Origin: a virus
Length of the DNA stretch: 27,701 nt
IMG/VR virus record: IMGVR_UViG_3300025671_000404
Span: 1 to 27,701 of that record
Direction: 5' to 3' (one strand)
Part shown: piece after piece, positions 1 through 10,246 of the stretch
How the letters are laid out: each line of letters opens with the position of its first letter
How positions within the stretch are numbered: the first letter of the stretch is position 1
Notes under the pieces: model-generated
Told to the model about the DNA's origin: nothing
Seen by the model: only the letters and a program-made list of their open reading frames with translations
The model's database searches: none
Position numbers and translations under genes: made by a program

Positions 1-1569
1 AGGATCATTCTTAGTAAACTCATAAGCTAAACATAGAGCTTCTTTGGTAATAGTTGCAGACAATGACTGAATAGGATAATTCTGACACTTTCTTCGGATC
101 TCATCAGATCTCATAAAAGTTTCTATATAGAATTTCCTATTAGTTATATCATCCATTAATATATACCTATCTTGCAAAGCTTTGTAGTATATACTATCAA
201 AATAAGGAGCTAATTTGTCATACGCTTTGTAGAATAAATCAATATAACTATCAGCCTCTTCTAGAGATACTCCTAAATTCTCAGAAAGAGCATAAGAAGT
301 AGATCCATAAGCTACTGCAAAGTTAACCATTTTACCTATAGGCCTATGTTTATCTCTGTCATAATCTTCTTTAAATATCTTCTTAGCAGTTTCTGCATGA
401 GCATCCTCTGATAGAAGAGTACTAATTAAGTTCTGATCATTAGCTCTATCAGCTAATACACACAACTCTTGTTTAGAATAATCACATACAAGATATCTTG
501 AACTTCCTAATTTCTTAGTATTCCAAGATTTTCTTAATGGACCTACTGTAATATTCTGTAAATTAGGGTTACTACAAGACATCCTACCAGTATTTACTAA
601 CTGATTAAAGTTAGGATGATATCTACCAGTAATAGGATTCTTGTACTTCTCTATAAAATTCTGACCATAAGTGCTAACTGATTTAGCTATCCCTTTATAT
701 TGTAAATATAAATCTACAAAAGGATGATCAGAATACTTTTTGATATTCTTCTCTGCTATAGATAATCCAGTTTTATGGTCTTTTGATTTTATGTCAAAGC
801 CATATGATTGAAACACTGGTATCACTTGCTTAGAAGAATCCCAATTAATGAGACATTCTCTTTCTATAATATCAAAGAATTGATATTTACCATCCTTCCA
901 AAGAAAAGAATTTAATTCTGCACGAATAGAATTCATTTTCTCTAAATTAGAATTGTAAACATCCATCCAATCTTCCTCATTAAGTATCATACCGTTAAGC
1001 TCCATTTCTGCAATAGCTTTAACAGTATTCATCTCTAACTCAAATAACTTCTGCATCCCTTTACCTTCACATCTTTTTAACTGTGAAAGATAAAGTCTGT
1101 TAAGATGTTTGATATCTTCTAATGCATAAGTTATTTGTTCTTCATCCATAATAACAGTATCTATGAAACTCTCTCTAATTGACTTATTCATCTTTATATC
1201 GAATAGTCTTTCTAAGACATCCCCCAAAGAATAAGTAAGCCTCTTAGAAGAATTAGTTAATAGCTTTTCTGCTATCATAGTATCATAGACATTTTCTAAT
1301 CTAATTCCTGTAGCTACATACAGTAATTTATAATCATATTTAATATTATGTCCGATACATAATTTATTAGATAACGCTTCCATGATTTCTACAGAAGGTT
1401 TTCCAAATATTATGTGCTGCTCATCTTCATTACCTATCTGTAAAGAGATGATTTCAGACAAATAAGGATCTAATCCTTCATTAGGATGGAAGTGCCCAAG
1501 ATATTTACCTCTTGCTTCCGTATCCAGGCAGATATAATCTTGCTCATTGATCCACTTTACTAAGTTCAT
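1..1569 (-). CDS. DNA polymerase, family A (PolA-like), with 3'-5' exonuclease; C-terminus cut by the window edge
   Basis: This is the replicative polymerase of the phage, and 523 codons are visible. The N-terminal DEDDy exonuclease has Exo I (D16-T-E18), Exo II (N75-x3-D79 in IGHNIKYD) and Exo III (Y148-x3-D152). The polymerase domain has motif A (CDYSKQEL, D363) and motif B/O-helix (R409, K413, F417, Y421 in RPIGKMVNFAVAYG). Motif C (HDE) must lie left of base 1. The ATG at 1569 is the first possible start, because a TAA codon precedes it directly in frame. It overlaps the end of the 44-residue gene by 26 bases, so the two are probably translated from one mRNA. Family A polymerases are one of the two polymerase types used by crAss-like phages. 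All visible catalytic residues are intact. Family assignment is secure. Confidence 0.95.
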   Translation of the reverse strand, partial: MNLVKWINEQDYICLDTEARGKYLGHFHPNEGLDPYLSEIISLQIGNEDEQHIIFGKPSVEIMEALSNKLCIGHNIKYDYKLLYVATGIRLENVYDTMIAEKLLTNSSKRLTYSLGDVLERLFDIKMNKSIRESFIDTVIMDEEQITYALEDIKHLNRLYLSQLKRCEGKGMQKLFELEMNTVKAIAEMELNGMILNEEDWMDVYNSNLEKMNSIRAELNSFLWKDGKYQFFDIIERECLINWDSSKQVIPVFQSYGFDIKSKDHKTGLSIAEKNIKKYSDHPFVDLYLQYKGIAKSVSTYGQNFIEKYKNPITGRYHPNFNQLVNTGRMSCSNPNLQNITVGPLRKSWNTKKLGSSRYLVCDYSKQELCVLADRANDQNLISTLLSEDAHAETAKKIFKEDYDRDKHRPIGKMVNFAVAYGSTSYALSENLGVSLEEADSYIDLFYKAYDKLAPYFDSIYYKALQDRYILMDDITNRKFYIETFMRSDEIRRKCQNYPIQSLSATITKEALCLAYEFTKNDP

Positions 1570-1678
1570 TTACTTTAATTTTAGAAGATTTCTTATCTCC
1601 TTGTTTCTTAATCTTAGAAGGTACAATTTTTATTATATATTTACCCCCCTTTTCTTGGTAAAATCCTTTATATTTCAT
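1544..1678 (-). CDS. Small basic protein, 44 aa, upstream of DNA polymerase
   Basis: A short ORF from ATG at 1678 to TGA at 1544. The protein is very lysine-rich (KIVPSKIKKQGDKKSSKIK) and has no recognisable domain. It overlaps the polymerase start by 26 bases, which argues for translational coupling. It is the first gene after the terminator at 1690-1718, so a promoter for it and the polymerase may lie in the short AT-rich gap. A basic peptide next to a polymerase could bind nucleic acid, but that is inference from composition only. It could also be a translated leader. Confidence 0.55.
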   Translation of the reverse strand: MKYKGFYQEKGGKYIIKIVPSKIKKQGDKKSSKIKVNELSKVDQ

Positions 1679-1689
1679 AATTATTTTTT

Positions 1690-1718
1690 AAACAAAAAAG
1701 GGAGCAATACAGCTCCCT
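1690..1718 (-). terminator. Rho-independent terminator (minus strand)
   Basis: A 7-bp stem, AGGGAGC (1699-1705) with GCTCCCT (1712-1718) and a 6-nt loop, is followed on the minus strand by a T-rich run (1690-1699, TTTTTTGTTT). It lies 24 bases after the stop of the lipoprotein gene, separating the small-gene operon from the polymerase pair. Confidence 0.85.
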
Positions 1719-1741
1719 CTTGTAAGAATACAATGTTGCGG

Positions 1742-2017
1742 TTACCATGTTACTTGATTAGGGTCGCAATAATCTTCAAATGTATTAGTATAACTTCTTA
1801 AATTAAGATAGTTATTTATACTATACTCAAACTCAAATACCTTAGTATTCTTAGAGCAGTAGTTTTCTACAACTATATACATATTAGGATCATTGCTACT
1901 GAAACTGTACTGTACAATTTCTCCGCAATTACAAGGTTTATTAGGACCTATAATAGAATCATTACTACAAGAAGTAGTAAAAACTAATAAACCTAAAATA
2001 GTTAACAGTTTTCTCAT
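1742..2017 (-). CDS. Small lipoprotein, 91 aa
   Basis: The N-terminus (MRKLLTILGLLVFTTSC) is a classic lipoprotein signal peptide: two basic residues, a hydrophobic core and a lipobox ending in Cys17, so the mature protein should be a lipid-anchored envelope protein. The mature part is about 75 residues with cysteines at CNC, ENYC and EDYC that could form disulfides. No known family is recognised. It starts 2 bases after the stop of the 51-residue gene and is followed by a terminator, so it is the last gene of its operon. Phage lipoproteins often alter the host surface (for example superinfection exclusion) or act in lysis; either is inference. Confidence 0.8.
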   Translation of the reverse strand: MRKLLTILGLLVFTTSCSNDSIIGPNKPCNCGEIVQYSFSSNDPNMYIVVENYCSKNTKVFEFEYSINNYLNLRSYTNTFEDYCDPNQVTW

Positions 2018-2019
2018 TA

Positions 2020-2175
2020 TTAATTATTTATTTGTTCTATTTTGCTGTCGTCGATAATCTCATGAATCATATAAGATTCAGCTATTTCCATAGCTTTCTC
2101 TAATGCTTCATCTTTATCGGCAGCTTCTATACTAGTTAATTTAATACTTCCTGTTAATGTTACATTAAATTTCAT
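2020..2175 (-). CDS. Hypothetical protein, 51 aa
   Basis: A small ORF of 51 codons plus TAA. It fits between the SleB-like gene (5-base gap) and the lipoprotein (2-base gap), exactly as expected for a real gene in a compact operon. It begins with a beta-type segment (MKFNVTLTGSIKLTSIEA) followed by an acidic helix (ADKDEALEKAMEIAESYMIHEIIDD). That is a small alpha/beta layout resembling N- or C-terminal modules of larger phage proteins, but I cannot name a family. Confidence 0.7.
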   Translation of the reverse strand: MKFNVTLTGSIKLTSIEAADKDEALEKAMEIAESYMIHEIIDDSKIEQINN

Positions 2176-2180
2176 AAATT

Positions 2181-2690
2181 TTATCTTTTACAAAAGGTAG
2201 TATTCTGTATAGTGTATACATGTCTACCTTTCATGGAGTTAATAAAATCTTTATCCGTAGCCGCTGTAGTATAATAATACAATACATCGGTAGGATAGTA
2301 TAATCCATTTTCATATAAGAGCAAAGCATTCTTTGCTGCATTAATATAATAATTTTCTGGAGCTTTGTTGAAATTCTCAGTCTCAACGCCGTCAAATTGT
2401 ACTTTACGGGTTCCAGCTCCTTCAAATATAACACCCTCGAGAGTATTAGGATGTCTTTTGTCATAAATGCGATTTAATACTACTGTGGCCACGGAGTCAG
2501 CCATTTCGTTTGCATAAGCTTCTGATTTGAGAAGTCTAGCTAATAAGAAAACATCTTCATAAGAAGGCTGCTTCATTAGACTCTCAACATCATAATTATA
2601 ATTTTGTTCTGCTACCTTTACCTCTTGAGGAGTGATAGGAACTAAATATAATGCCACTGCTATTAGAGCGGCTGATACAAATGATTTCAT
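2181..2690 (-). CDS. SleB-like cell wall hydrolase (Hydrolase_2 type), secreted
   Basis: A 169-residue protein with an N-terminal hydrophobic export signal (about residues 3-20), then a short linker and a domain with the SleB/CwlJ pattern: LLARLLKSEAYANEMADSV (candidate catalytic E57), VATVVLNRI (68-75), a Gly-Val step and QFDG (98-101), and a C-terminal RHVYTIQNTTFC strand. Members of this family are peptidoglycan lytic transglycosylases or amidases. The signal peptide implies action in the periplasm. It sits in the minus-strand accessory operon, away from the plus-strand amidase at 13318, so the phage carries two wall-cutting enzymes on opposite transcription units. Family assignment is fairly secure; the exact bond cut is not known. 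Confidence 0.8.
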   Translation of the reverse strand: MKSFVSAALIAVALYLVPITPQEVKVAEQNYNYDVESLMKQPSYEDVFLLARLLKSEAYANEMADSVATVVLNRIYDKRHPNTLEGVIFEGAGTRKVQFDGVETENFNKAPENYYINAAKNALLLYENGLYYPTDVLYYYTTAATDKDFINSMKGRHVYTIQNTTFCKR

Positions 2691-2704
2691 ATTCTAAAGT
2701 TTAG

Positions 2705-2917
2705 TTATAAAATGCGGGCTTTCCTTGCCCATAACCTCTCTTTCTTCATAAGATGAGGATTTTTATGCCTAAGAAATTCATAAGGTACTACTTTCGTAAA
2801 AGGTGCATCAAATAAATTCCTACCAGCCTGGTTATAGGTATATTTTAAACCGTCCTTAGTGTAGGATACGTTTAAAATCTCCTTTGTTTTCTGGTTTCGT
2901 AACGCTACTAGTTGCAT
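2705..2917 (-). CDS. Hypothetical protein, 70 aa
   Basis: A small ORF, basic at its C-terminus (HKNPHLMKKERLWARKARIL). It overlaps the end of the DUF4365-like gene by 62 bases; no internal Met before residue 56 offers a shorter start, so the overlap is real if the gene is. It lies 14 bases before the SleB-like gene in the same operon. No family is recognised. Confidence 0.6.
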   Translation of the reverse strand: MQLVALRNQKTKEILNVSYTKDGLKYTYNQAGRNLFDAPFTKVVPYEFLRHKNPHLMKKERLWARKARIL

Positions 2918-3287
2918 ATACTCTAATTGTTTTATTGTTATTTAATAAGATTTCTCTGGATCTGATTACATCTACTGTTCTATCTTCTATATTTACTAGA
3001 TAGATATAAACATCTAAAGGTAAACTATTCCAGAATCTGATAATATCTGTGCTTAGTTGGACCCATCTCTTTCCAGGTACAGCAGTACCTTTTAATTGAG
3101 CTAAGCACATTCTAGGTATAACTTGACCATCTCTATATTCAGTTAAGAAATAGTCAATACCGAAATAATCCTGATTAAGTTCGTTGATAATAAAGTTACT
3201 ACTAACAGCTTCACTGAATAGAATTTTAGAATAAGCTTCTATCTGTGCAGCGTTTACGAACTTAGGATTAACCTGGACATTTTTCAT
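2856..3287 (-). CDS. DUF4365-like protein (PD-(D/E)XK nuclease-fold candidate)
   Basis: A 143-residue protein with the layout of DUF4365 domains: an N-terminal helix (AQIEAYSKILFSEAVSSN), then NQDYFGIDYFLTEY with a conserved Asp after Gly-Ile, then MCLAQLKGT, the Q-x-K strand seen in restriction-endonuclease folds, then IIRFWNSLPLDVYIYLVNIEDRTVDVI, which matches the family's 'W...lPv.lvl.d' segment. D and K/Q positions compatible with a metal-dependent nuclease are therefore present. DUF4365 domains are usually found in defence or mobile-element proteins; here the gene lies in a phage accessory operon, overlapping both neighbours. Whether it cuts DNA is not shown by sequence. Confidence 0.65.
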   Translation of the reverse strand: MKNVQVNPKFVNAAQIEAYSKILFSEAVSSNFIINELNQDYFGIDYFLTEYRDGQVIPRMCLAQLKGTAVPGKRWVQLSTDIIRFWNSLPLDVYIYLVNIEDRTVDVIRSREILLNNNKTIRVYATSSVTKPENKGDFKRILH

Positions 3288-3756
3288 AAGTCCTTCTTTT
3301 TAAGAATTTATTTGAGTCGTCATAATAAACTTCTCCATCCTCATCCTCCCATGTATTATAGGATTTAAGGTAACTAGGATCATTAGTCATAACAATCGCA
3401 TCTCTTAATATAAGGACCTTTCCAGGCTTTATTCTAATATAACCATTGTTAATGCTATAAAAGCCATTATCCATTTTGGTTATATTTTTAATTTTTAACA
3501 TATTATACTCAGTGTCACTAATAGAAACACTGTTAGTCCCTGTAGTATAATTGTACTGATTAGGGTCTACGTATAATATGTGATCTTTGTTACTAATTGT
3601 GCTAGGAATTTTATATCCAGTAAACTCAGGATAATACACTCCTGCACAGTCATTAATATCTGTCATATATGTAACTGGCCCTTTACTTTTAATAAAAAAA
3701 AGAGAAGTTAATAATAATATTACAGATATATAAACTATGTCTTTCATTTTATTCAT
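3268..3756 (-). CDS. Membrane-anchored hypothetical protein, 162 aa
   Basis: One N-terminal hydrophobic segment (IVYISVILLLTSLFFI, residues 7-22), with no lipobox, is followed by an extracytoplasmic-type domain rich in Asn, Tyr and Asp. It is either a signal anchor or a cleaved signal peptide. The gene overlaps the next by 20 bases and the previous one by 8, so it is part of the tight minus-strand operon. No family is recognised. An envelope-located accessory role is an inference from topology. Confidence 0.7.
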   Translation of the reverse strand: MNKMKDIVYISVILLLTSLFFIKSKGPVTYMTDINDCAGVYYPEFTGYKIPSTISNKDHILYVDPNQYNYTTGTNSVSISDTEYNMLKIKNITKMDNGFYSINNGYIRIKPGKVLILRDAIVMTNDPSYLKSYNTWEDEDGEVYYDDSNKFLKRRTYEKCPG

Positions 3757-3946
3757 TTAAATAGTTTTTAATTCTCCTAACCCATATTTGTTTGGAAAAG
3801 TTCTTCCAGTCTTCTCCGACTATGGTAATAAACTCAGAAGTAGTAAGAGCAAATCTTTCTTTTACTTCTCTTCTGTCTCTAAATTTCTGTTCATTCTTAT
3901 TATATATTTCAAAAGCAGAAGGAACATGTAATATATTTAATGGCAT
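3749..3946 (-). CDS. Hypothetical protein, 65 aa, first gene of the operon
   Basis: A small basic, helical protein (KNEQKFRDRREVKERFALTTSEFITIVGEDWKNFSKQIWVRRIKNYLNE) without a recognisable domain. It overlaps the membrane protein by 8 bases. It is the first gene after the tandem hairpin region 3976-4166, so the promoter of this operon or read-through from upstream must pass through that structure. Confidence 0.6.
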   Translation of the reverse strand: MPLNILHVPSAFEIYNKNEQKFRDRREVKERFALTTSEFITIVGEDWKNFSKQIWVRRIKNYLNE

Positions 3947-3975
3947 AATAATGGTTTAATAATCCCTGAATTTAC

Positions 3976-4050
3976 AGGGGTAAAAAAATAGGGAGCATTA
4001 GGGGTATAAAATAGTAAATAATACTAAATTAATGATTCCTAATGCTCCCT
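3976..4050 (-). terminator. Large terminator-like hairpin, copy 1
   Basis: A 13-bp perfect stem (3990-4002 with 4038-4050) encloses a 35-nt AT-rich loop that has its own 5-bp stem (TAGTA 4012-4016 with TACTA 4022-4026). On the minus strand the stem is followed by TATTTTTTTACCCCT (3976-3990), a 15-base sequence repeated exactly at 4066-4080. A strong stem followed by a T tract suits transcription termination of the block to the right. Confidence 0.7.
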
Positions 4051-4065
4051 TGGAGACATGGTAAT

Positions 4066-4166
4066 AGGGGTAAAAAAATAAGGGGTAACTAGATAGTTAT
4101 TATAGAATGCTGGACTGTCTTTAGTCCCTACCTGATTCTAAATAATATACTCTCTAATTACCCCTT
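4066..4166 (-). terminator. Large terminator-like hairpin, copy 2
   Basis: The outer 9-bp stem AAGGGGTAA (4080-4088) with TTACCCCTT (4158-4166) closes an 87-nt arm. Further in, TATTATAGAAT near 4100 can pair imperfectly with ATTCTAAATAATA near 4135, and at the tip GGACT pairs with AGTCC around a 6-nt loop. The arm is followed on the minus strand by the same TATTTTTTTACCCCT tract as copy 1. It begins just 8 bases after the stop of the 235-aa gene. Confidence 0.65.
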
Positions 4167-4174
4167 GGGTATTA

Positions 4175-4882
4175 TTAAGATTTAAAAGCCGCTACAGCAG
4201 CTTTTAATTGTTTAGACTGTCTGTTAGACAATCCTGAGAAACGATCAGCCCCATTAAAATGGGATTTGATGCTTTTCTCGATTTGATACGGCAACTTTAA
4301 GTTACCAAGAAACTCCTGCATAGAGGACACTGCCTCTTTAGCAGATCCAAAATCCTTCACTGCAGGAAAGATTTTAAGACTTTTCTCTCCAGTGAGACTG
4401 GAGAAGTAAAAAAGTTTCACATGATTCTTGTCCTCCTGATGGAAGGCAAAGTCAGTAAAGACTGATCCCGGTTCTAAGGCCAGGATGTCTACTTCCTGCT
4501 TACGAATCCCTCTATCGAAGAACTCGAATGCTTCAAAAGAAGCCACAGACAAAGGTAATACCTTACTATCATAGAAACGCTTGTAGCTAGCAAAGCTAGC
4601 TATGTTTCTACGCATGATCTCGGAATCACCAGTGACCCCTAAAGGGCCGTTGGAATCCTCCGTTAAAACAACCCGTCTACCCTTTAGGGTTTTCGGGATG
4701 AAATTTAGTGCCAATCCCTCATGGCTTACGCCGAGGGATTTTAATCTTTTCCCACTCTTCTTTTTAGTGGCTGTGGTAGCCACTTTTGATAAATCAATTA
4801 CTCTTTTAGGTCCTTTGTTTGACTCTAAAATTTCTGCAGTCAACTCTACTGCAGTTGGGTTTGGACTTAAATTTTTATTCAT
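4175..4882 (-). CDS. Hypothetical protein, 235 aa
   Basis: No family is recognised. The N-terminal 60 residues are basic and low in structure (VATTATKKKSGKRLKS); the rest is a mixed alpha/beta sequence ending in a basic helical tail (SGLSNRQSKQLKAAVAAFKS). It has no signal peptide or membrane segment. The DNA is clearly less AT-rich than genes on either side of the block and is full of perfect inverted repeats inside the reading frame, for example 8 bp at 4386-4404, a 7+8 bp nested stem at 4572-4610, 7 bp at 4766-4784 and 7 bp at 4834-4854. The gene is followed by the tandem hairpins at 3976-4166. The basic N-terminus could bind nucleic acid (inference). Confidence 0.75.
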   Translation of the reverse strand: MNKNLSPNPTAVELTAEILESNKGPKRVIDLSKVATTATKKKSGKRLKSLGVSHEGLALNFIPKTLKGRRVVLTEDSNGPLGVTGDSEIMRRNIASFASYKRFYDSKVLPLSVASFEAFEFFDRGIRKQEVDILALEPGSVFTDFAFHQEDKNHVKLFYFSSLTGEKSLKIFPAVKDFGSAKEAVSSMQEFLGNLKLPYQIEKSIKSHFNGADRFSGLSNRQSKQLKAAVAAFKS

Positions 4883-5078
4883 GTCTTACATACCCACCAC
4901 TACCCGGAGGATTTCCCGGAGGTTTAGTTTAAAAAAATTAGCACCGTATCAAATGACTTAGGTCTAGCTGGCAACTCCTCATGCTTTTCTTCCTCTCGAA
5001 TACCGTTTCAAGGTAGCATGCCATACTTTTCAGTATGGTTCTAATTTATTAATCGCTAGTAGGTTTCAGCGATGTGAA
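4883..5078 (-). other. Non-coding leader with hairpins
   Basis: I see no ORF longer than about 15 codons. It holds two direct copies of CCCGGAGG near 4903-4921, a 7-bp hairpin CCATACT/AGTATGG (5021-5027/5032-5038) whose minus-strand loop reads GAAA (a GNRA-type loop), and a 6-bp hairpin ATCGCT/AGCGAT (5052-5057/5068-5073). Its position makes it both the trailer of the 100-aa gene and the leader of the 235-aa gene. Confidence 0.5.
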
Positions 5079-5381
5079 TTATGTTCTAGTTAATTCAACA
5101 CTAACTTCTTCCGAATAGCTAATATTGGCATGCAGAAGAAGAAATTTTCGCCTCCATACCCTAGGAATCCTAGAGATAAAGACCGTTTGATATATGGTTT
5201 TACTCATGAAGGACTCTAGTCCCTTCATGTGTAAGTTTCTTTTTACTGATATATATGGCATCTCTGCCGGTACATCGGTAAAAAGAACTTCAGTACGTGG
5301 CTCTATTTTTTTCAGGTCAGCCACTAACCTGTTTTTGTAGCAAGATTTGCATCCTGCTACAGTAATTTCAAACTTTCGCAT
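5079..5381 (-). CDS. Hypothetical protein, 100 aa
   Basis: The N-terminus (MRKFEITVAGCKSCYKNRLVADLKKI) has a C-x2-C pair, resembling the small redox or zinc motif of thioredoxin-like or heavy-metal-binding folds, but no second pair completes a zinc site. The rest is basic. The reading frame contains several hairpins: 8 bp CATGAAGG/CCTTCATG at 5205-5229, CTAGG-aat-CCTAG at 5161-5173, and 7 bp TGTAGCA/TGCTACA at 5336-5361. A 10-bp hairpin stands in its leader (5397-5436). Function unknown. Confidence 0.65.
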   Translation of the reverse strand: MRKFEITVAGCKSCYKNRLVADLKKIEPRTEVLFTDVPAEMPYISVKRNLHMKGLESFMSKTIYQTVFISRIPRVWRRKFLLLHANISYSEEVSVELTRT

Positions 5382-5396
5382 TTCTTTTTTAGATTG

Positions 5397-5436
5397 CCCA
5401 TAAAACTTATAGAATAAATCCTACAGGTTTTATGGG
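5397..5436 (-). promoter_or_regulatory. 10-bp leader hairpin upstream of the 100-aa gene
   Basis: CCCATAAAAC (5397-5406) pairs perfectly with GTTTTATGGG (5427-5436) around a 20-nt loop. It ends 15 bases before the start codon at 5381 and overlaps the gap after the 79-aa gene. It has no T tract on either side, so a leader or processing structure is more likely than a terminator. The segment ACAGGTTTTAT is shared with the hairpin region at 5905-5929. Confidence 0.5.
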
Positions 5437-5446
5437 AATTAATAAA

Positions 5447-5686
5447 TTAATCAAAGAATTTACCAACCGTAATGTTCGTAAATTTACTCTGGACTCCCTC
5501 CGACTGGAGTTCGTCTTTATCGGCCACTGCCTTCTTGCGAAGATGGTGACCTTTTCCAGCGGTGCAGTACGAGCATCTGCATCCGATTTTATCTTCTTTT
5601 CTCCAGCGCTGCCCGTATTTGCGCTGGTTTGCTCCTTTAGAGTCAAAGGCTGTTACCCCTTTGACTCTTCTTATTGTTTTTCCCAT
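5447..5686 (-). CDS. Hypothetical protein with CxCxxC...HH cluster, 79 aa
   Basis: A basic protein with the segment KIGCRCSYCTAGKGHHLRKK, where three Cys and two His are close together and could bind a metal. It overlaps the upstream gene end (5671) by 16 bases, as coupled genes do. The alternative minus frame 5407-5646 covers nearly the same DNA but has no such motif and no natural junction with its neighbour, so this frame is preferred. Internal hairpins: 7 bp CCAGCGC/GCGCTGG (5603-5627) and 11 bp AGAGTCAAAGG/CCTTTGACTCT (5639-5668). Function unknown. Confidence 0.6.
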   Translation of the reverse strand: MGKTIRRVKGVTAFDSKGANQRKYGQRWRKEDKIGCRCSYCTAGKGHHLRKKAVADKDELQSEGVQSKFTNITVGKFFD

Positions 5687-5883
5687 TGTTCTATTTTTCG
5701 GAATACTTCACGAAGTGTGAAGGCGACTCCGTTGAAAAATACTTCATCATCCTCTTCAGAGGAGATGGTAATCTTATAGGACTCTTTGTAAGAGCCCTTT
5801 GACTTCTCCACTTTGTAGACGATGCCATCTCTGATAGCAATCATCCTTGCGGGTGTGTGGAACACCCATTTTAAAGCCGGCAT
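5671..5883 (-). CDS. Hypothetical protein, 70 aa
   Basis: A small protein (MPALKWVFHTPARMIAIRDG...) whose middle reads like a short beta-sheet (GIVYKVEKSKGSYKESYKITISS), followed by an acidic turn (EEDDEVFFNG) and a C-terminal helix (LREVFRKIEQWEKQ). No known family. It is coupled to the 79-aa gene by a 16-base overlap and preceded by the 10-bp hairpin at 5905-5929. In-frame hairpins include CTTCAC/GTGAAG (5706-5722) and GGGTGT/ACACCC (5851-5867). Confidence 0.65.
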   Translation of the reverse strand: MPALKWVFHTPARMIAIRDGIVYKVEKSKGSYKESYKITISSEEDDEVFFNGVAFTLREVFRKIEQWEKQ

Positions 5884-5904
5884 AGTCAGCCTTTTAAATA
5901 TAAA

Positions 5905-5929
5905 ACCTGTAAAACATAATTTTACAGGT
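5905..5929 (-). promoter_or_regulatory. 10-bp leader hairpin upstream of the 70-aa gene
   Basis: ACCTGTAAAA (5905-5914) and TTTTACAGGT (5920-5929) form a perfect 10-bp stem with a 5-nt loop. Flanking bases (ATATAA/TTATAT, TTTAAAT/ATTTAAA) extend it imperfectly. It lies 21 bases upstream of the start codon at 5883. There is no T tract after it on the minus strand. Confidence 0.5.
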
Positions 5930-5975
5930 CTTATATCATTTAAATAAAATTTCCTAAAATACGATTCTTGTATAG

Positions 5976-6007
5976 AAGAAAGTAGCCGAATCGAAAACTA
6001 CTTTCTT
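5976..6007 (-). terminator. 10-bp trailer hairpin after the 135-aa lipoprotein gene
   Basis: AAGAAAGTAG (5976-5985) pairs with CTACTTTCTT (5998-6007) around a 12-nt loop, 6 bases after the stop codon at 6014. The following minus-strand sequence (CTATACAAG) has no clear T run, so it could be a stability or processing hairpin rather than a true terminator. Confidence 0.5.
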
Positions 6008-6013
6008 TTCCAC

Positions 6014-6421
6014 CTATTTACGGATAAATCCTAGGTGAACGTTTTTATTAAAATCTGTTCCTCCATGTTCCCATTTCCAAACGGCCACATTATCGTGGCC
6101 TATATCCCAGTAGTCGTAGATATGCTGTAGCATACCCATCGCATCATACTGCATCCCTGGAGACACACAGAAAATTTCAAAACTGCGGAAACGGTCGCAG
6201 TCTATGAACATAATTTCAATACATCCCTCAAAAATTAGAGAAGTGTCTTGTAAAATTATCAGCCCACCGTCTGGCTGATAATAGTAATTCTCGGGAACAT
6301 CGTCCCAAGATAAGTTAAACGGGTCATGTTGATTAACCGGTCTGTATGTGATCGGCTCTATCTCTTTCATACTGCAACTTATAGCTGCTAAAGAGAGAAA
6401 TAATAAAATGAAATATCTCAT
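6014..6421 (-). CDS. Lipoprotein, 135 aa
   Basis: MRYFILLFLSLAAISC is a clear lipoprotein signal peptide with the lipobox A-I-S-C16, followed by S-M-K-E. An acidic or charged residue right after the Cys is typical of Bacteroidetes surface-exported lipoproteins. The mature domain is acidic and rich in aromatic residues (FNLSWDDVPENYYYQ, WDIGHDNVAVWKWEHGG), without a known family. It is the second lipoprotein in the window. A 10-bp hairpin lies inside the gene (6255-6282). The leader carries a possible pseudoknot (6431-6464). A role at the host surface is inferred from the signal only. Confidence 0.8.
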   Translation of the reverse strand: MRYFILLFLSLAAISCSMKEIEPITYRPVNQHDPFNLSWDDVPENYYYQPDGGLIILQDTSLIFEGCIEIMFIDCDRFRSFEIFCVSPGMQYDAMGMLQHIYDYWDIGHDNVAVWKWEHGGTDFNKNVHLGFIRK

Positions 6422-6430
6422 TTTTCTTAG

Positions 6431-6464
6431 ACCTATCTTTTGCTATGCACGGGTTAGGTTTCCC
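6431..6464 (-). promoter_or_regulatory. Possible leader pseudoknot of the 135-aa lipoprotein gene
   Basis: On the minus strand: GGG (6464-6462), AA, ACCTA (6459-6455), A, CCC (6453-6451), a 15-nt loop, and TAGGT (6435-6431). GGG can pair with CCC and ACCTA with TAGGT, giving the same crossed order as the three conserved pseudoknots. The linkers differ, loop 3 is longer, and the spacing to the start codon is only 9 nt. Treat it as a possible relative. Confidence 0.35.
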
Positions 6465-6482
6465 TTTTTTGTTTAAAAATAG

Positions 6483-6555
6483 CACCCTCTATTGGATTCG
6501 AACCAATGACCTACGGTTTAGAAGACCGTTGCTCTATCCACTGAGCTAAGAGGGT
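6483..6555 (-). tRNA. tRNA-Arg (anticodon UCU)
   Basis: A full 73-nt cloverleaf on the minus strand. The acceptor stem is ACCCTCT/AGAGGGT, D stem GCTC/GAGC with loop AGTGGATA, anticodon stem ACGGT/ACCGT with loop CTTCTAA (anticodon TCT), T stem ATTGG/CCAAT with loop TTCGAAT, and discriminator G. CCA is not encoded. It would read AGA, the dominant arginine codon of most genes in this window, so it probably supports phage translation. Confidence 0.95.
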
Positions 6556-6650
6556 GTAATATCAGTCTTTTACATGCTTTGTTCTCCGTACTGATAAAAG
6601 AGAACTTTCAATTGAGGTATAACGCATGTCTGCTTCCTCAGAGACCTCTT
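6556..6650 (-). other. Non-coding spacer between the 101-aa gene and the tRNA
   Basis: No ORF. Crossing complementary segments are present: TATCAGT near 6560 with ACTGATA near 6592, ACATGC near 6573 with GCATGT near 6622, and TTCTC with GAGAA between them. These may fold the tRNA 5' flank. There is no obvious promoter. Confidence 0.35.
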
Positions 6651-6956
6651 CTATCCTCTAACGAAACCAGGAACGGATACAATCCATCCTTTCTCGTTTC
6701 TGATAGTTTCAGGATGTCCAGTAGCCGGAGCTACTAAATCCTTTCTATCAGAAGAAGATAGAACCATCGCTGATACGATGTACAAAGTGTCTTCCACAGG
6801 AGCTGGAACATTCTCCAACTCTCCGTATACAACACTACATACATCATTCTCAAACGAAGTAAAAGAAGTCCCCACTCTAGCTACAGAGCCAGATGGTTCG
6901 AATCTTCTACCATCGTTTAATACGATGGGGTGAGGTGTACAATTAATATATTTCAT
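6651..6956 (-). CDS. Hypothetical 'TPHP' phage protein, 101 aa
   Basis: The sequence pattern MKYINCTPHPIVLNDGRRFEPSGSVARVG...VPAPVEDTLYIVSAMV...RKDLVAPATGHPETIRNEKGWIVSVPGF matches a small, widely distributed phage/bacterial family of unknown function (N-terminal N-x-T-P-H-P, central S-G-x-V-A-R-V, Y-I-V-S-x-x-V, and a D-L-V-x-P before a conserved R-x-E-x-G). No catalytic role is known to me. Its leader has one of the three conserved pseudoknots (6984-7015), 27 nt before the start codon. A 7-bp hairpin CCATCGT/ACGATGG (6910-6928) overlaps the early coding region. Confidence 0.8.
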   Translation of the reverse strand: MKYINCTPHPIVLNDGRRFEPSGSVARVGTSFTSFENDVCSVVYGELENVPAPVEDTLYIVSAMVLSSSDRKDLVAPATGHPETIRNEKGWIVSVPGFVRG

Positions 6957-6983
6957 TTTTTGAAATATTTAATTGTTAAAAAT

Positions 6984-7015
6984 ACTCTACTTACTTAGGC
7001 GAGAGTTTTAGCCTA
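6984..7015 (-). promoter_or_regulatory. Conserved leader pseudoknot, copy 1
   Basis: Read on the minus strand: TAGGC (7015-7011), TAAA, ACTCT (7006-7002), C, GCCTA (7000-6996), AGTAAGT, AGAGT (6988-6984). TAGGC pairs with GCCTA and ACTCT with AGAGT in crossed order, giving an H-type pseudoknot with 5-bp stems. The linkers TAAA, C and the ending AAGT are the same as in copies 2 and 3, while the stems differ by paired changes. It lies 27 nt upstream of the start codon at 6956. Confidence 0.75.
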
Positions 7016-7558
7016 CCTTACAACAATTTAAGACCATTTGGATTTAACTTCAGGTCACTCATTTCTGAGCTTGTTGCCAACCTCCCAATTAAGGGAGGAA
7101 TTTATAAACATTTCTCTTTCTGTTGCAAGACTACACATACGCATACACGAGTGTCTTGACAACAGTTAAAGCCAAAGAGAGTGGCTCTCTCGGATTACAG
7201 GATAACCTAATACCCTGCTCTATAAACTACCCGCGATTTCGGGCTCCATATATGCCTCCGAAAGCATATACAGCGACTCTTCTTTATATAGTGTTCTAAG
7301 GAGAAAAAGAGTCGACTTCCTTCTTAGAACTTGGTCTATTTCTATAGCGCTGACCAGCGCTTACAAAATCATTTTCATGATTTTAGTATTTAGTGCTAGA
7401 CAGTGTTACTTTTCAGTAACACCATCTAACACAGTTCCTGTGTTCTATCAAAGAACACTTCTCCCCGAAGAAACGGCGGAAGGCAGTTTATCTGCCTACT
7501 ATTTATTTAACCCCATTACGGTACTAGACTCGAGCGGATATAGCTATCCTTGTCTGAA
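7016..7558 (-). ncRNA. Gene-free, hairpin-packed region; candidate structured RNA
   Basis: No ORF over about 40 codons is seen on the minus strand. Perfect stems follow one another: CCTCCC/GGGAGG (7081-7098); a 12-bp stem with one bulged A (7120-7131 with 7153-7165); CATATATGC-type stem near 7247; GTTCTAAG/CTTAGAAC (about 7292-7330); AGCGCT/AGCGCT (7346-7361); GTGTTACT/AGTAACAC (7403-7422, minus-strand loop GAAA); AACACAG/CTGTGTT (7428-7444) competing with GTGTTCT/AGAACAC (7440-7458); and AGGCAG/CTGCCT (7481-7497). Size, phage origin and nearness to a tRNA recall the large ornate RNAs (ROOL, GOLLD), but I see no specific sequence match. A plus-strand ORF (7377-7679) overlaps the end and is judged a chance frame. 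Confidence 0.45.
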
Positions 7559-7729
7559 TTACGACCGATCCACTGTGCTAGGTGGCACACTCACGTGGTT
7601 ATTAGCGCGAGTGATTGAATCTTTCCACACTTCTGCGCACACTTCTGCAGAAGAGAGACCAGTAACCAACTGGTCTTGACAGTTTTCTTTTAATAGAGTT
7701 CTACTGTTATATGAACTCAAACTTGCCAT
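7559..7729 (-). CDS. Possible small protein, 56 aa (low confidence)
   Basis: A minus-strand ORF starting MASLSSYNSRTLLKENCQDQ and ending VPPSTVDRS with TAA. It is on the same strand as all other genes of the block and is opposed by a plus-strand frame of similar quality (7377-7679). No domain, no leader pseudoknot. It contains the 8-bp hairpin AGACCAGT/ACTGGTCT (7656-7676). It may instead be part of the non-coding structured region. Confidence 0.25.
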   Translation of the reverse strand: MASLSSYNSRTLLKENCQDQLVTGLSSAEVCAEVWKDSITRANNHVSVPPSTVDRS

Positions 7730-7818
7730 TTACCCCTGACAAGACGCACGATTTATCGCCCTTTTTGGGGAGACAGTTATAAAGGTTATTCACCCTTATA
7801 ACTGCCTTGGTAGTCTCC
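7730..7818 (-). other. Structured spacer
   Basis: A 9-bp stem CAGTTATAA (7774-7782) with TTATAACTG (7796-7804) has an inner GGT/ACC pair. It is enclosed by GGAGAC (7769-7774) with GTCTCC (7813-7818). This gives a branched arm immediately next to the internal-loop hairpin at 7819-7870. No ORF. Confidence 0.5.
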
Positions 7819-7870
7819 TATATAGCTGCTATCCCTACCTACTACCATCAGTAGGACACATAGCTATATA
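7819..7870 (-). ncRNA. Trailer hairpin with conserved internal loop, copy A
   Basis: Outer stem TATATAGCT (7819-7827) with AGCTATATA (7862-7870), 9 bp. Inner stem CCTAC (7834-7838) with GTAGG (7851-7855). Between them is an asymmetry-free internal loop GCTATC (7828-7833) facing ACACAT (7856-7861); on the minus strand these read GATAGC and ATGTGT. Copy B at 8253-8309 has the same internal loop but different, still complementary, stems. It starts 10 bases after the stop codon of the 102-aa gene. Confidence 0.75.
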
Positions 7871-7880
7871 AGGTTGGAAC

Positions 7881-8189
7881 CTATTCTGCGAATACTAAGA
7901 CCGGAGTCTTTTCTTCTACATTTTCGGTTTCGTCATCTTCGAAATCGAAGACAGAAGCTCCTGCACACGTAGTGGTCAGGTTTTTACCGAAAATGTTCCA
8001 CCCACCTAAGTGAGTGATAAGTTCCTCTTCCTCGGAATCTATCCATCTGTCTGATGCGAGAGCATCAAACTCTAGATAGATTCTTCCCTCGAATTTCCAT
8101 TTCCCCCATTTGGGAGGAAATACTAGGTTCTCGTTCGTCGATATTTCTATCGACTCGAGGAAGAAGTTAATCTTCTGTTCTCTAGTCAT
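7881..8189 (-). CDS. Hypothetical protein, 102 aa, acidic
   Basis: An acidic protein (FPPKWGKWKFEGRIYLEFDALASDRWIDSEEEELITHLGGW..., C-terminal DFEDDETENVEEKTPVLVFAE) with several Trp residues and no known family. The amino-acid pattern looks like a real folded protein. Its mRNA is unusual: a conserved pseudoknot 25 nt upstream (8215-8243), a nested 9+5 bp stem inside the gene (8035-8083, with GATGC-GAGA-GCATC at the tip), GTCGATA/TATCGAC near the start, and the internal-loop hairpin copy A right after the stop. Confidence 0.7.
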   Translation of the reverse strand: MTREQKINFFLESIEISTNENLVFPPKWGKWKFEGRIYLEFDALASDRWIDSEEEELITHLGGWNIFGKNLTTTCAGASVFDFEDDETENVEEKTPVLVFAE

Positions 8190-8214
8190 TTATATGATTT
8201 AGAGATCAATAATG

Positions 8215-8243
8215 CCGGTACTTCAAGGAGACCGGTTTATCCT
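8215..8243 (-). promoter_or_regulatory. Conserved leader pseudoknot, copy 3
   Basis: Read on the minus strand: AGGA (8243-8240), TAAA, CCGGT (8235-8231), C, TCCT (8229-8226), TGAAGT, ACCGG (8219-8215). AGGA pairs with TCCT and CCGGT with ACCGG in crossed order. Linkers TAAA, C and ...AAGT match the other copies although both stems are different. It is 25 nt upstream of the start codon at 8189. Confidence 0.75.
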
Positions 8244-8252
8244 AATAGTCAG

Positions 8253-8309
8253 CCTACACAGTCGCTATCTCTATCTTACTATTATTGATAGAACACATAA
8301 CTGTGTAGG
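8253..8309 (-). ncRNA. Trailer hairpin with conserved internal loop, copy B
   Basis: Outer stem CCTACACAGT (8253-8262) with ACTGTGTAGG (8300-8309), 10 bp. Inner stem TCTATC (8270-8275) with GATAGA (8287-8292). The internal loop CGCTATC (8263-8269) facing ACACATA (8293-8299) contains the same GCTATC and ACACAT as copy A. It begins about 20 bases after the stop codon of the 57-aa gene and ends just before pseudoknot copy 3. Confidence 0.75.
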
Positions 8310-8329
8310 GAAAGGGCCTCAAAGTTTTC

Positions 8330-8503
8330 CTAGAAAGATGTTCTTTCTAAGAGTTCTTTGAGTACGGCTTTTTGGACTATCTGCCACTGAATCTTTTTAA
8401 TGTCAGCAGCAGGTCCTTCGCCGAACCCTTTTTCCAAGTCTTTGTTAAGACCGACTAAATAGTCAGTCAACTCAGACTTAGTAAGACTCTTCAAATACTC
8501 CAT
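8330..8503 (-). CDS. Hypothetical protein, 57 aa
   Basis: A short helical ORF, MEYLKSLTKSELTDYLVGLNKD...ADIKKIQWQIVQKAVLKELLERTSF, ending in TAG. It is supported by its position: pseudoknot copy 2 sits 27 nt upstream of the ATG and internal-loop hairpin copy B follows the stop. A nested stem (CTCAAAG/CTTTGAG with inner TAGAAAGA/TCTTTCTA, 8318-8362) covers the stop codon. No family recognised. Confidence 0.7.
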   Translation of the reverse strand: MEYLKSLTKSELTDYLVGLNKDLEKGFGEGPAADIKKIQWQIVQKAVLKELLERTSF

Positions 8504-8530
8504 TTATGGATATTTTTAGAGTTAATAATA

Positions 8531-8561
8531 CCTCTACTTACGTAGGTGAGAGGTTTAACCT
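8531..8561 (-). promoter_or_regulatory. Conserved leader pseudoknot, copy 2
   Basis: Read on the minus strand: AGGT (8561-8558), TAAA, CCTCT (8553-8549), C, ACCT (8547-8544), ACGTAAGT, AGAGG (8535-8531). AGGT pairs with ACCT and CCTCT with AGAGG in crossed order. Same linkers as copies 1 and 3. It is 27 nt upstream of the start codon at 8503 and directly follows the stop of the 76-aa membrane protein gene. Confidence 0.75.
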
Positions 8562-8569
8562 TTTTTTGG

Positions 8570-8800
8570 TTAGTCTCTTTCTTCTATAGTGACAATCACT
8601 ATAGCGAAAAAGAAACAAGCTCCCCCTACCATTACTGATAAGGAGAAATTCCCTAACAACAACCAAAAATCGTTGTTGTTAAAGTTTAACGCACCGTAAT
8701 AATGGTGCAATGTTCCTGCAGTCCATGCAGGGATGACGATAGAAGCTATCATCAACAAAATAGCAGCTATTGCTGCTGTAGCAAATTTAAATTTTTTCAT
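8570..8800 (-). CDS. Small membrane protein, 76 aa
   Basis: The start at 8800 (MKKFKFATAAIAAILLMIASIVIPAWTAG) is preferred over an upstream in-frame Met at 8878, because it gives a proper basic-hydrophobic N-terminus and leaves the leader hairpin 8819-8844 outside the gene. It has two hydrophobic segments: residues about 7-28 and 49-70 (WLLLGNFSLSVMVGGACFFFAIVIV), followed by a charged tail (TIEERD). It may be a two-pass inner-membrane protein, or carry a signal peptide plus one membrane segment. It could be a holin-like or exclusion protein, but no family is recognised. Confidence 0.7.
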   Translation of the reverse strand: MKKFKFATAAIAAILLMIASIVIPAWTAGTLHHYYGALNFNNNDFWLLLGNFSLSVMVGGACFFFAIVIVTIEERD

Positions 8801-8818
8801 AATATATATTTTTTTGTA

Positions 8819-8844
8819 TCTCCCATTACTTACGTAACAGGAGA
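8819..8844 (-). promoter_or_regulatory. Leader hairpin related to the conserved pseudoknots
   Basis: TCTCC (8819-8823) pairs with GGAGA (8840-8844). The minus-strand loop contains TACGTAAGTA, shared with pseudoknot copy 2. The upstream strand lacks the TAAA linker and a clear first stem, so this is a divergent or simplified version. It is 18 nt upstream of the start codon at 8800. Confidence 0.5.
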
Positions 8845-9070
8845 TGGTTTTTTGACTTTTAGCTACCATGCAGTCCATACACTCTCTTTTAGAGAGCTTT
8901 TATTCTGAGAGTTTAACGTCTTCTCCAGGTACTTTTTCGACGGAAACCAATGCTTTGGTTTCTAATTTTTTTGTAAACTAATGGCATTGGGATATATTTT
9001 TTCAACCAATGCTTTTTTAAATGTCGGAGACACACACCACACCTATTGGTGTGATGTGGTTTCCTGAGGG
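8845..9070. other. Non-coding spacer with hairpins and T tracts
   Basis: No convincing ORF. It contains an 8-bp hairpin GAAACCAA/TTGGTTTC (8943-8962), a 7-bp stem GCATTGG/CCAATGC (8984-8990/9006-9012) followed on the plus strand by six T, and CACACC-tatt-GGTGTG (9038-9053) just after the stop of the 168-aa gene on the minus strand. The segment ACCAATGCTTT occurs twice (near 8946 and 9005). One or more of these may end the transcript of the 168-aa gene. Confidence 0.45.
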
Positions 9071-9577
9071 CTATACTATTTCAAATGTTTCGTACGTTAC
9101 GCCTTTAGGTGATGTATACGGTTCGCCTTTAATGATGGTGCAAACAGCTGTATTACTTTCATTAAAGTTAATAGAGTCAATAGTAGCAAAAGGCTTACTA
9201 CCATGAATTGATATTAAAGTTTTCCAATAATAACCCTCTGAATTGTAGTCGATAGTAGATAATTCCTCTATCGTTCCTACAAATTCGCCTTTTTCATTGA
9301 ATAACTCTACATCCGTCTCAAAATCGGTCAATTCGGTAGGTTCACCTTTATAAGATAGACCTACTTTCATTTTTGCACCGTTTGTGAGGCATAAACGAAC
9401 ATCAATTCTTGTCACAGGAACATTAGGAACATTTAATATTATTTTGTTAGATTTTACTAATCTACCCAAAATTCTACTTTGTTGCCAATCTGTCTCATTT
9501 CCGTTTAAATTAATGTTGTTTTCTACTACATAATTTAACAAATTTGCGGGTTTAGCCCCTACTTGTGGATTTACCAT
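9071..9577 (-). CDS. Hypothetical protein, 168 aa
   Basis: The start at 9577 (MVNPQVGAKPANLLNYVVENNINLNG) is chosen over the in-frame Met at 9640, because the extra 21 residues lie in an AT-rich leader and look like untranslated sequence. The protein is mostly beta-strand-like (KIILNVPNVPVTRIDVRLCLTNGAKMKVGLSYKG) with an acidic middle. No signal peptide or known family. It is the first minus-strand gene at the divergent junction, so it is probably transcribed from the promoter region 9641-9856. Position suggests an early gene; function unknown. Confidence 0.65.
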   Translation of the reverse strand: MVNPQVGAKPANLLNYVVENNINLNGNETDWQQSRILGRLVKSNKIILNVPNVPVTRIDVRLCLTNGAKMKVGLSYKGEPTELTDFETDVELFNEKGEFVGTIEELSTIDYNSEGYYWKTLISIHGSKPFATIDSINFNESNTAVCTIIKGEPYTSPKGVTYETFEIV

Positions 9578-9640
9578 GATTTTTGATTTTTTAAAGTTTA
9601 CAAAAAAGTTAAATTTTGAGAAACCCACAGGGTTACCCAA

Positions 9641-9856
9641 AATTCGTTAGAATCACAAAGGGGTTAGTATTGGGGTAGCATCGACAAAAACACCCACCCT
9701 TGAAAAAATTTTTTCTAAAATTTTTTTTTCTGGGAACTTTTTTAATTTTTCTGTGTTAACCTAAAGTCAATAAGAATGAGTTACTCATATATACAGTAAC
9801 TCACACCATGGATAAAGTACAAACATAATATTATGTAATTTAGGAAAACAGAAAAA
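9641..9856. promoter_or_regulatory. Divergent intergenic region (strand switch)
   Basis: This gene-free region separates leftward and rightward transcription, so it should contain promoters for both. It has a 14-bp palindrome GAAAAAATTTTTTC (9702-9715), long T/A tracts to about 9755, a 9-bp hairpin TGAGTTACT/AGTAACTCA (9777-9785/9795-9803) and the palindrome CATAATATTATG just before the first plus gene. I cannot fix exact promoter boxes. An operator or replication origin function is possible but unproven. Confidence 0.5.
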
Positions 9857-10246
9857 ATGAAATACTTATTGATTCAGATTAATGCCCCAGAAGCGAGTAT
9901 ATGGTCTGAAGTTTTAGATAGAAGTTTAGCTATATTCATCTCTATGGCTGTAATAGTTTTAATGGGATGGTTGTTTAAAGATTCTAGAAGATATTGGCAA
10001 GAAACTATTAAAGAAAAAGAAAACTCAATTCTAGAAAAGGACAAAAAACTTTACGAAGCCTTAAAAGAGAATTTAATAGTATACCAAAAGATATCTGCTA
10101 GCATAGAAAGAAATCTTACTTCAGGAAACAAAGAACAAAATGAAACTTTAAGATCTGAACTTAAAGAAATTAAAGAACATTTCGATAACAAAATGAATGA
10201 GATTAGAAATGAACTTAGAATTATTTCCGAAAAAATAATTAAATAA
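9857..10246 (+). CDS. Single-pass membrane protein with coiled coil, 129 aa
   Basis: One membrane segment (about residues 26-43, LAIFISMAVIVLMGWLF) is followed by a long, highly charged heptad-like helix (KEKENSILEKDKKLYEALKENL...NKMNEIRNELRIISEKIIK). This topology, a short N-terminus, one membrane helix and a coiled-coil tail, occurs among phage lysis accessory proteins and inner-membrane spanins. The gene is first in the plus-strand module that also carries the amidase, so a lysis role is reasonable but only inferred. Confidence 0.7.
   Translation: MKYLLIQINAPEASIWSEVLDRSLAIFISMAVIVLMGWLFKDSRRYWQETIKEKENSILEKDKKLYEALKENLIVYQKISASIERNLTSGNKEQNETLRSELKEIKEHFDNKMNEIRNELRIISEKIIK

Follow-up and report, generated by a model that had tools for sequence, protein, structure and literature searches.

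Genomic context of the hairpins

The window considered here (the whole 27.7-kb stretch of a virus record) encodes terminase, portal and major head proteins which have matches in the respective phage protein families. Among phages, the best matches of the terminase (about 30% identity) and of the major head protein (22–26% identity) are to Flavobacterium phages and crAss-like phages, and the phage is crAss-like. Its genes run leftward below approximately 9.6 kb and rightward above, the left arm containing small genes of no known family along with a tRNA-Arg and a DNA polymerase. This arm is labelled “early” by analogy, and the early and polycistronic status of its RNA is read from gene order only. 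Two hairpins, A and B, lie within it on the minus strand. A 57-aa early gene of no known family (8330–8503, minus strand) ends 20 nt before hairpin B, which is followed by a 102-aa early gene, also of no known family (7881–8189, minus strand), ending 8 nt before hairpin A. Directly behind hairpin A is a gene-free, strongly folded stretch of about 0.9 kb (6957–7816, minus strand), a candidate large structured RNA, so that hairpin A sits exactly on the border between gene and gene-free stretch. The same phage is represented in IMG/VR by three more contigs (L111, L004 and L003; 99.7–99.9% identity), which stop at 3820 or begin at 9694 and 12324; the folded segment is absent from all three, through either an assembly break or strain variation.

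Architecture of the two hairpins

Hairpin A (7817–7872) consists of an 11-bp outer stem (arms at 7862–7872 and 7817–7827), a 6 × 6 internal loop in which AUGUGU (7856–7861) faces GAUAGC (7828–7833), a 6-bp inner stem (7850–7855 and 7834–7839) and a 10-nt apical loop (7840–7849). Hairpin B (8253–8309) has the same layout (outer arms 8299–8309 and 8253–8263, internal loop 8293–8298 and 8264–8269, inner arms 8287–8292 and 8270–8275), with an apical loop of 11 nt (8276–8286). Both of the minus-strand hairpins with a common internal loop described in the earlier note are therefore present, and their stems are perfectly paired as it had claimed, although the lengths it gave (outer stems of 9 and 10 bp, inner stems of 5 and 6 bp) become 11 and 6 bp in both copies when G-U pairs are counted. 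The apical loops have AU..UAGUA in common. Across the internal loop the opposed bases are A-C, U-G, G-A, U-U, G-A and U-G and, as far as can be judged from the sequence, the element may form a continuous rod of 23 layers with a distinctive non-canonical patch.

Homology and compensated pairing

Aligning A with B gives 57 columns with 16 substitutions, all of them transitions, and a single 1-nt gap. A covariance model built from B alone finds A with an E-value of 3.2e-11 (next best hit 0.077), and when B is compared with the shuffled neighbouring region using a transition-tolerant score, the observed value of 31.2 lies well above the maximum of 300 shuffles (15.6). Chance would give 0.05 occurrences of the linked loop pattern per window, and two are seen. 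In a search for purine/pyrimidine repeats the A/B pair (37, versus 27–30 in shuffles) surpasses every other repeat of the early region in length, this type of search being non-discriminating across loci. By their alignment, A and B are homologous copies of one ancestor. The stems had initially been described as different, which is true of their letters; they are nevertheless homologous and differ by transitions only.

Nine of the 17 stem pairs are identical in the two copies, five are doubly compensated, three have changed on one side through U-G, and none is broken. Shuffling the pairing partners equals this compensation in 17 of 500 cases, which is approximately the limit attainable with two sequences, and sliding the partners destroys it. 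Since U-G pairs would be A-C on the plus strand, the U-G changes indicate minus-strand RNA as the functional molecule, and the pattern of substitutions thus points to the coding strand of the neighbouring genes as the functional form. The proposal of an RNA element with kept pairing and a kept internal loop is supported by these compensatory and U-G changes, and A and B are probably real RNA signals. The same changes bear on whether the hairpins could be single-stranded DNA promoters for a virion RNA polymerase, as in phage N4. Such a role would suit crAss-like phages, which carry a large virion RNA polymerase, but it is extremely improbable here: the three pairs varying through U-G would be mismatches in single-stranded DNA, the hairpins sit after genes, and stems of 11 and 6 bp with an apical loop of 10–11 nt are unlike N4 promoters, which have a short stem and a small loop.

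All 12 bases of the internal loop are identical in both copies, as had been noted, while changes have occurred in 8 of the 17 pairs and, in the apical loop, at 3 of 10 aligned positions. Given 11 changed units among 39 (pairs treated as units), the probability of this invariance is approximately 0.008, which is modest and no more than suggestive.

Searches for further copies

The earlier note had proposed a covariance-model search among phages. The B-only model does find A, but approximately 1.8 Mb of crAss-like contigs contained no further copy. A covariance-model search of 83 loci (974 kb), of 67 further loci and of whole contigs gave hits at chance level only (16 bits, versus 82–93). There is no copy in the whole contigs of the nearest relatives, nor in the other contigs of the same phage, whose coverage leaves out this region. 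Scanning IMG/VR with a strict pattern gave no matches, as did a pattern scan of GTDB genomes. A relaxed scan of IMG/VR (loop and inner-stem pattern) returned 20 matches with an outer stem never longer than 4 bp, compared with 11 bp in A and B, and these chance matches provide a useful null. Within the window only the tRNA matches Rfam (release 15) at the gathering threshold, and a permissive Rfam scan of 3900–9900 has nothing at A or B. No close relatives were found via the early proteins (4178–4882 and 9074–9580), nor any terminase relatives in GTDB contigs; the DNA polymerase led to one near-identical contig, ending before the hairpin region. The element is hence represented by two copies in one phage record and, as far as these collections show, the hairpin pair is new as a sequence family.

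Some other features were seen in the related contigs. The nearest relative (L009) has a tRNA match across 140 bases (262–401, minus strand), corresponding to a tRNA gene interrupted by an insert of about 65 bases. Another crAss-like relative (L013) encodes a chaperonin-like protein (7051–8571; GroEL-like by eye) among genes of the structural side, and a tmRNA (629–999).

Folding of the early region

The minus strand is unusually folded between approximately 4 and 9.5 kb, with z-scores mostly from −3 to −8 for 200-nt windows across 4–9.4 kb. Each of the ten early genes between 4 and about 9.6 kb is more strongly folded than any of its 60 synonymous shuffles (z −2.9 to −7.2). The partial DNA polymerase gene, further left, likewise surpasses all 60 (z −6.85), while three other left-arm genes gave z-scores of −2.6 to −3.4 (in one case 1 of 60 shuffles was as good) and the late genes have a weaker tendency (z −0.8 to −3.3); the exact z values are approximate, since codon shuffling leaves the protein and its codon usage intact but does not preserve dinucleotides. 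Seven of the ten genes compared fold better as sense than as antisense strand, and in the other three the two are about equal. The early region appears to be selected for folding. In a relative (L012), structures with z below −3 on the minus strand cover 51–77% of each of the first 5 kb (1–5000), and a tRNA-Arg is found at a similar place.

The gene-free stretch has a z-score of about −17 when hairpin A is included (6985–7900) and −10.6 without it (6990–7810), both being rough values from 20 shuffles each, and −7 on the plus strand. It contains no minus-strand open reading frame longer than 57 aa, also with TAG or TGA recoded. The large RNAs GOLLD and ROOL are encoded by phages and prophages, frequently close to tRNA islands (PMC12286853). 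The stretch resembles them in being about 0.9 kb long, gene-free, strongly folded and located in a phage near a tRNA gene, but it differs in being separated from the single tRNA-Arg by one protein gene, and it has no match to any Rfam model, GOLLD and ROOL included, at an E-value limit of 5. Elsewhere on the minus strand, the hairpins at approximately 8818–8845, 8538–8560 and 6985–7007 resemble one another in their loop (CNCCU...GUAAGU); they lie shortly upstream of the start codons at 8800, 8503 and 6956, and are possibly a second family, of leader hairpins.

Such general folding raises the question of whether A and B are its by-product, that is, a fairly recently duplicated segment which has drifted under selection for folding of the early transcript, with a loop that is identical mostly through shared ancestry. 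The advantage of the ten early genes and the partial DNA polymerase gene over their shuffles, smaller among the late genes, and the low z-scores throughout 4–9.4 kb agree with this, as does the p-value of only about 0.008 for loop invariance. Bases which the model leaves unpaired are however dispensable for folding, and it is those 12 which were all kept while pairs and apical bases changed. We consider this origin unlikely.

Placement after genes

The paired regions begin 8 nt (A) and 20 nt (B) past the stop codons at 7881–7883 and 8330–8332, respectively, so the description of the hairpins as directly following stop codons is correct. In this region a hairpin behind a stop codon is unremarkable, as the whole of it is strongly folded, and most early genes bear some post-stop hairpin without the AUGUGU/GAUAGC loop, so that a general role at 3′ ends does not require this loop. 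The position and the stability of the stems are what A and B share with intrinsic terminators. The G+C-rich hairpin of such a terminator is followed by a U-tract, whereas none is found after either hairpin and a terminator scan lists neither, which argues that they are not of this kind. Furthermore, genes carry on downstream of hairpin B, and the terminator-type hairpins of the region lie at its far end (about 4.0–4.1 kb), where they precede AUUUUUUU. It is thus very unlikely that A and B terminate transcription of the early genes. As for the far end itself, two minus-strand hairpins at approximately 3950–4170 are each followed by AUUUUUUUACCCC, and are likely the true terminators closing the small early genes.

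The gene at 8189–7881 starts about 63 nt downstream of hairpin B. This would suit an operator bound by a phage or host RNA-binding protein which tunes the translation or stability of neighbouring genes without cleavage, and an invariant non-canonical loop within variable, compensated stems has the look of a protein-binding hairpin. Since there is no gene for 0.9 kb behind A, the two copies cannot both act on a downstream start codon, and we regard an operator of this kind as possible but somewhat unlikely.

A possible intercistronic signal

The intercistronic placement, the missing U-tract, a rod spanning about two turns and bearing a conserved patch, and the duplication are together reminiscent of the sites at which RNase III processes T7 early mRNA, and favour a processing or protein-binding site. 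In T7, R1.1 is described as an RNA of 60 nt whose internal loop has 4/5 nt; it derives from between the early genes 1.0 and 1.1 and contains an RNase III site (PMC6121014). When folded, the T7 intercistronic regions give a repeated hairpin of 9–13 bp. A and B, too, are irregular hairpins roughly 60 nt long that contain an internal loop and recur among early genes, and their 11 bp, 6 × 6 loop and 6 bp, located between 8330 and 8189 and after 7881, fit the hairpin shape of a T7-type site. They differ in that the T7 loop is asymmetric (4/5 nt) and of another sequence, while theirs is symmetric, and in being present in two copies only. By analogy, we tentatively prefer to regard A and B as intercistronic RNA-processing or protein-binding sites resembling those of T7, with A parting an mRNA from a candidate structured RNA.

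Under this preferred reading, one RNA element would have been duplicated within the leftward early transcription unit to serve as an intercistronic signal in a polycistronic early RNA. The rod of 11 + 6 + 6 layers would present the conserved non-canonical patch, which a double-strand-specific RNase or an RNA-binding protein could recognise; cleavage or binding at the hairpin would then part the cistrons, with a stable stem remaining at the 3′ end, and in the case of copy A would in addition detach the last mRNA from the candidate structured RNA of 0.9 kb that follows. We infer that both hairpins would be transcribed, recognised and, if processed, cut. The marking of transcript 3′ ends suggested in the earlier note is likewise hypothetical. 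The most specific version is doubtful: here a previously undescribed processing hairpin would divide a strongly folded early transcript into its cistrons and set free the 0.9-kb stretch as a structured RNA belonging to a new class.

To our knowledge, intercistronic RNA signals of phages are known mainly from T7 and T4. The combination of a compensated, duplicated hairpin, an adjoining folded gene-free stretch and an early region under apparent selection for folding suggests a role of RNA structure in organising early expression among the crAss-like phages, which are an abundant group. A and B are moreover short RNAs which can be tested directly.
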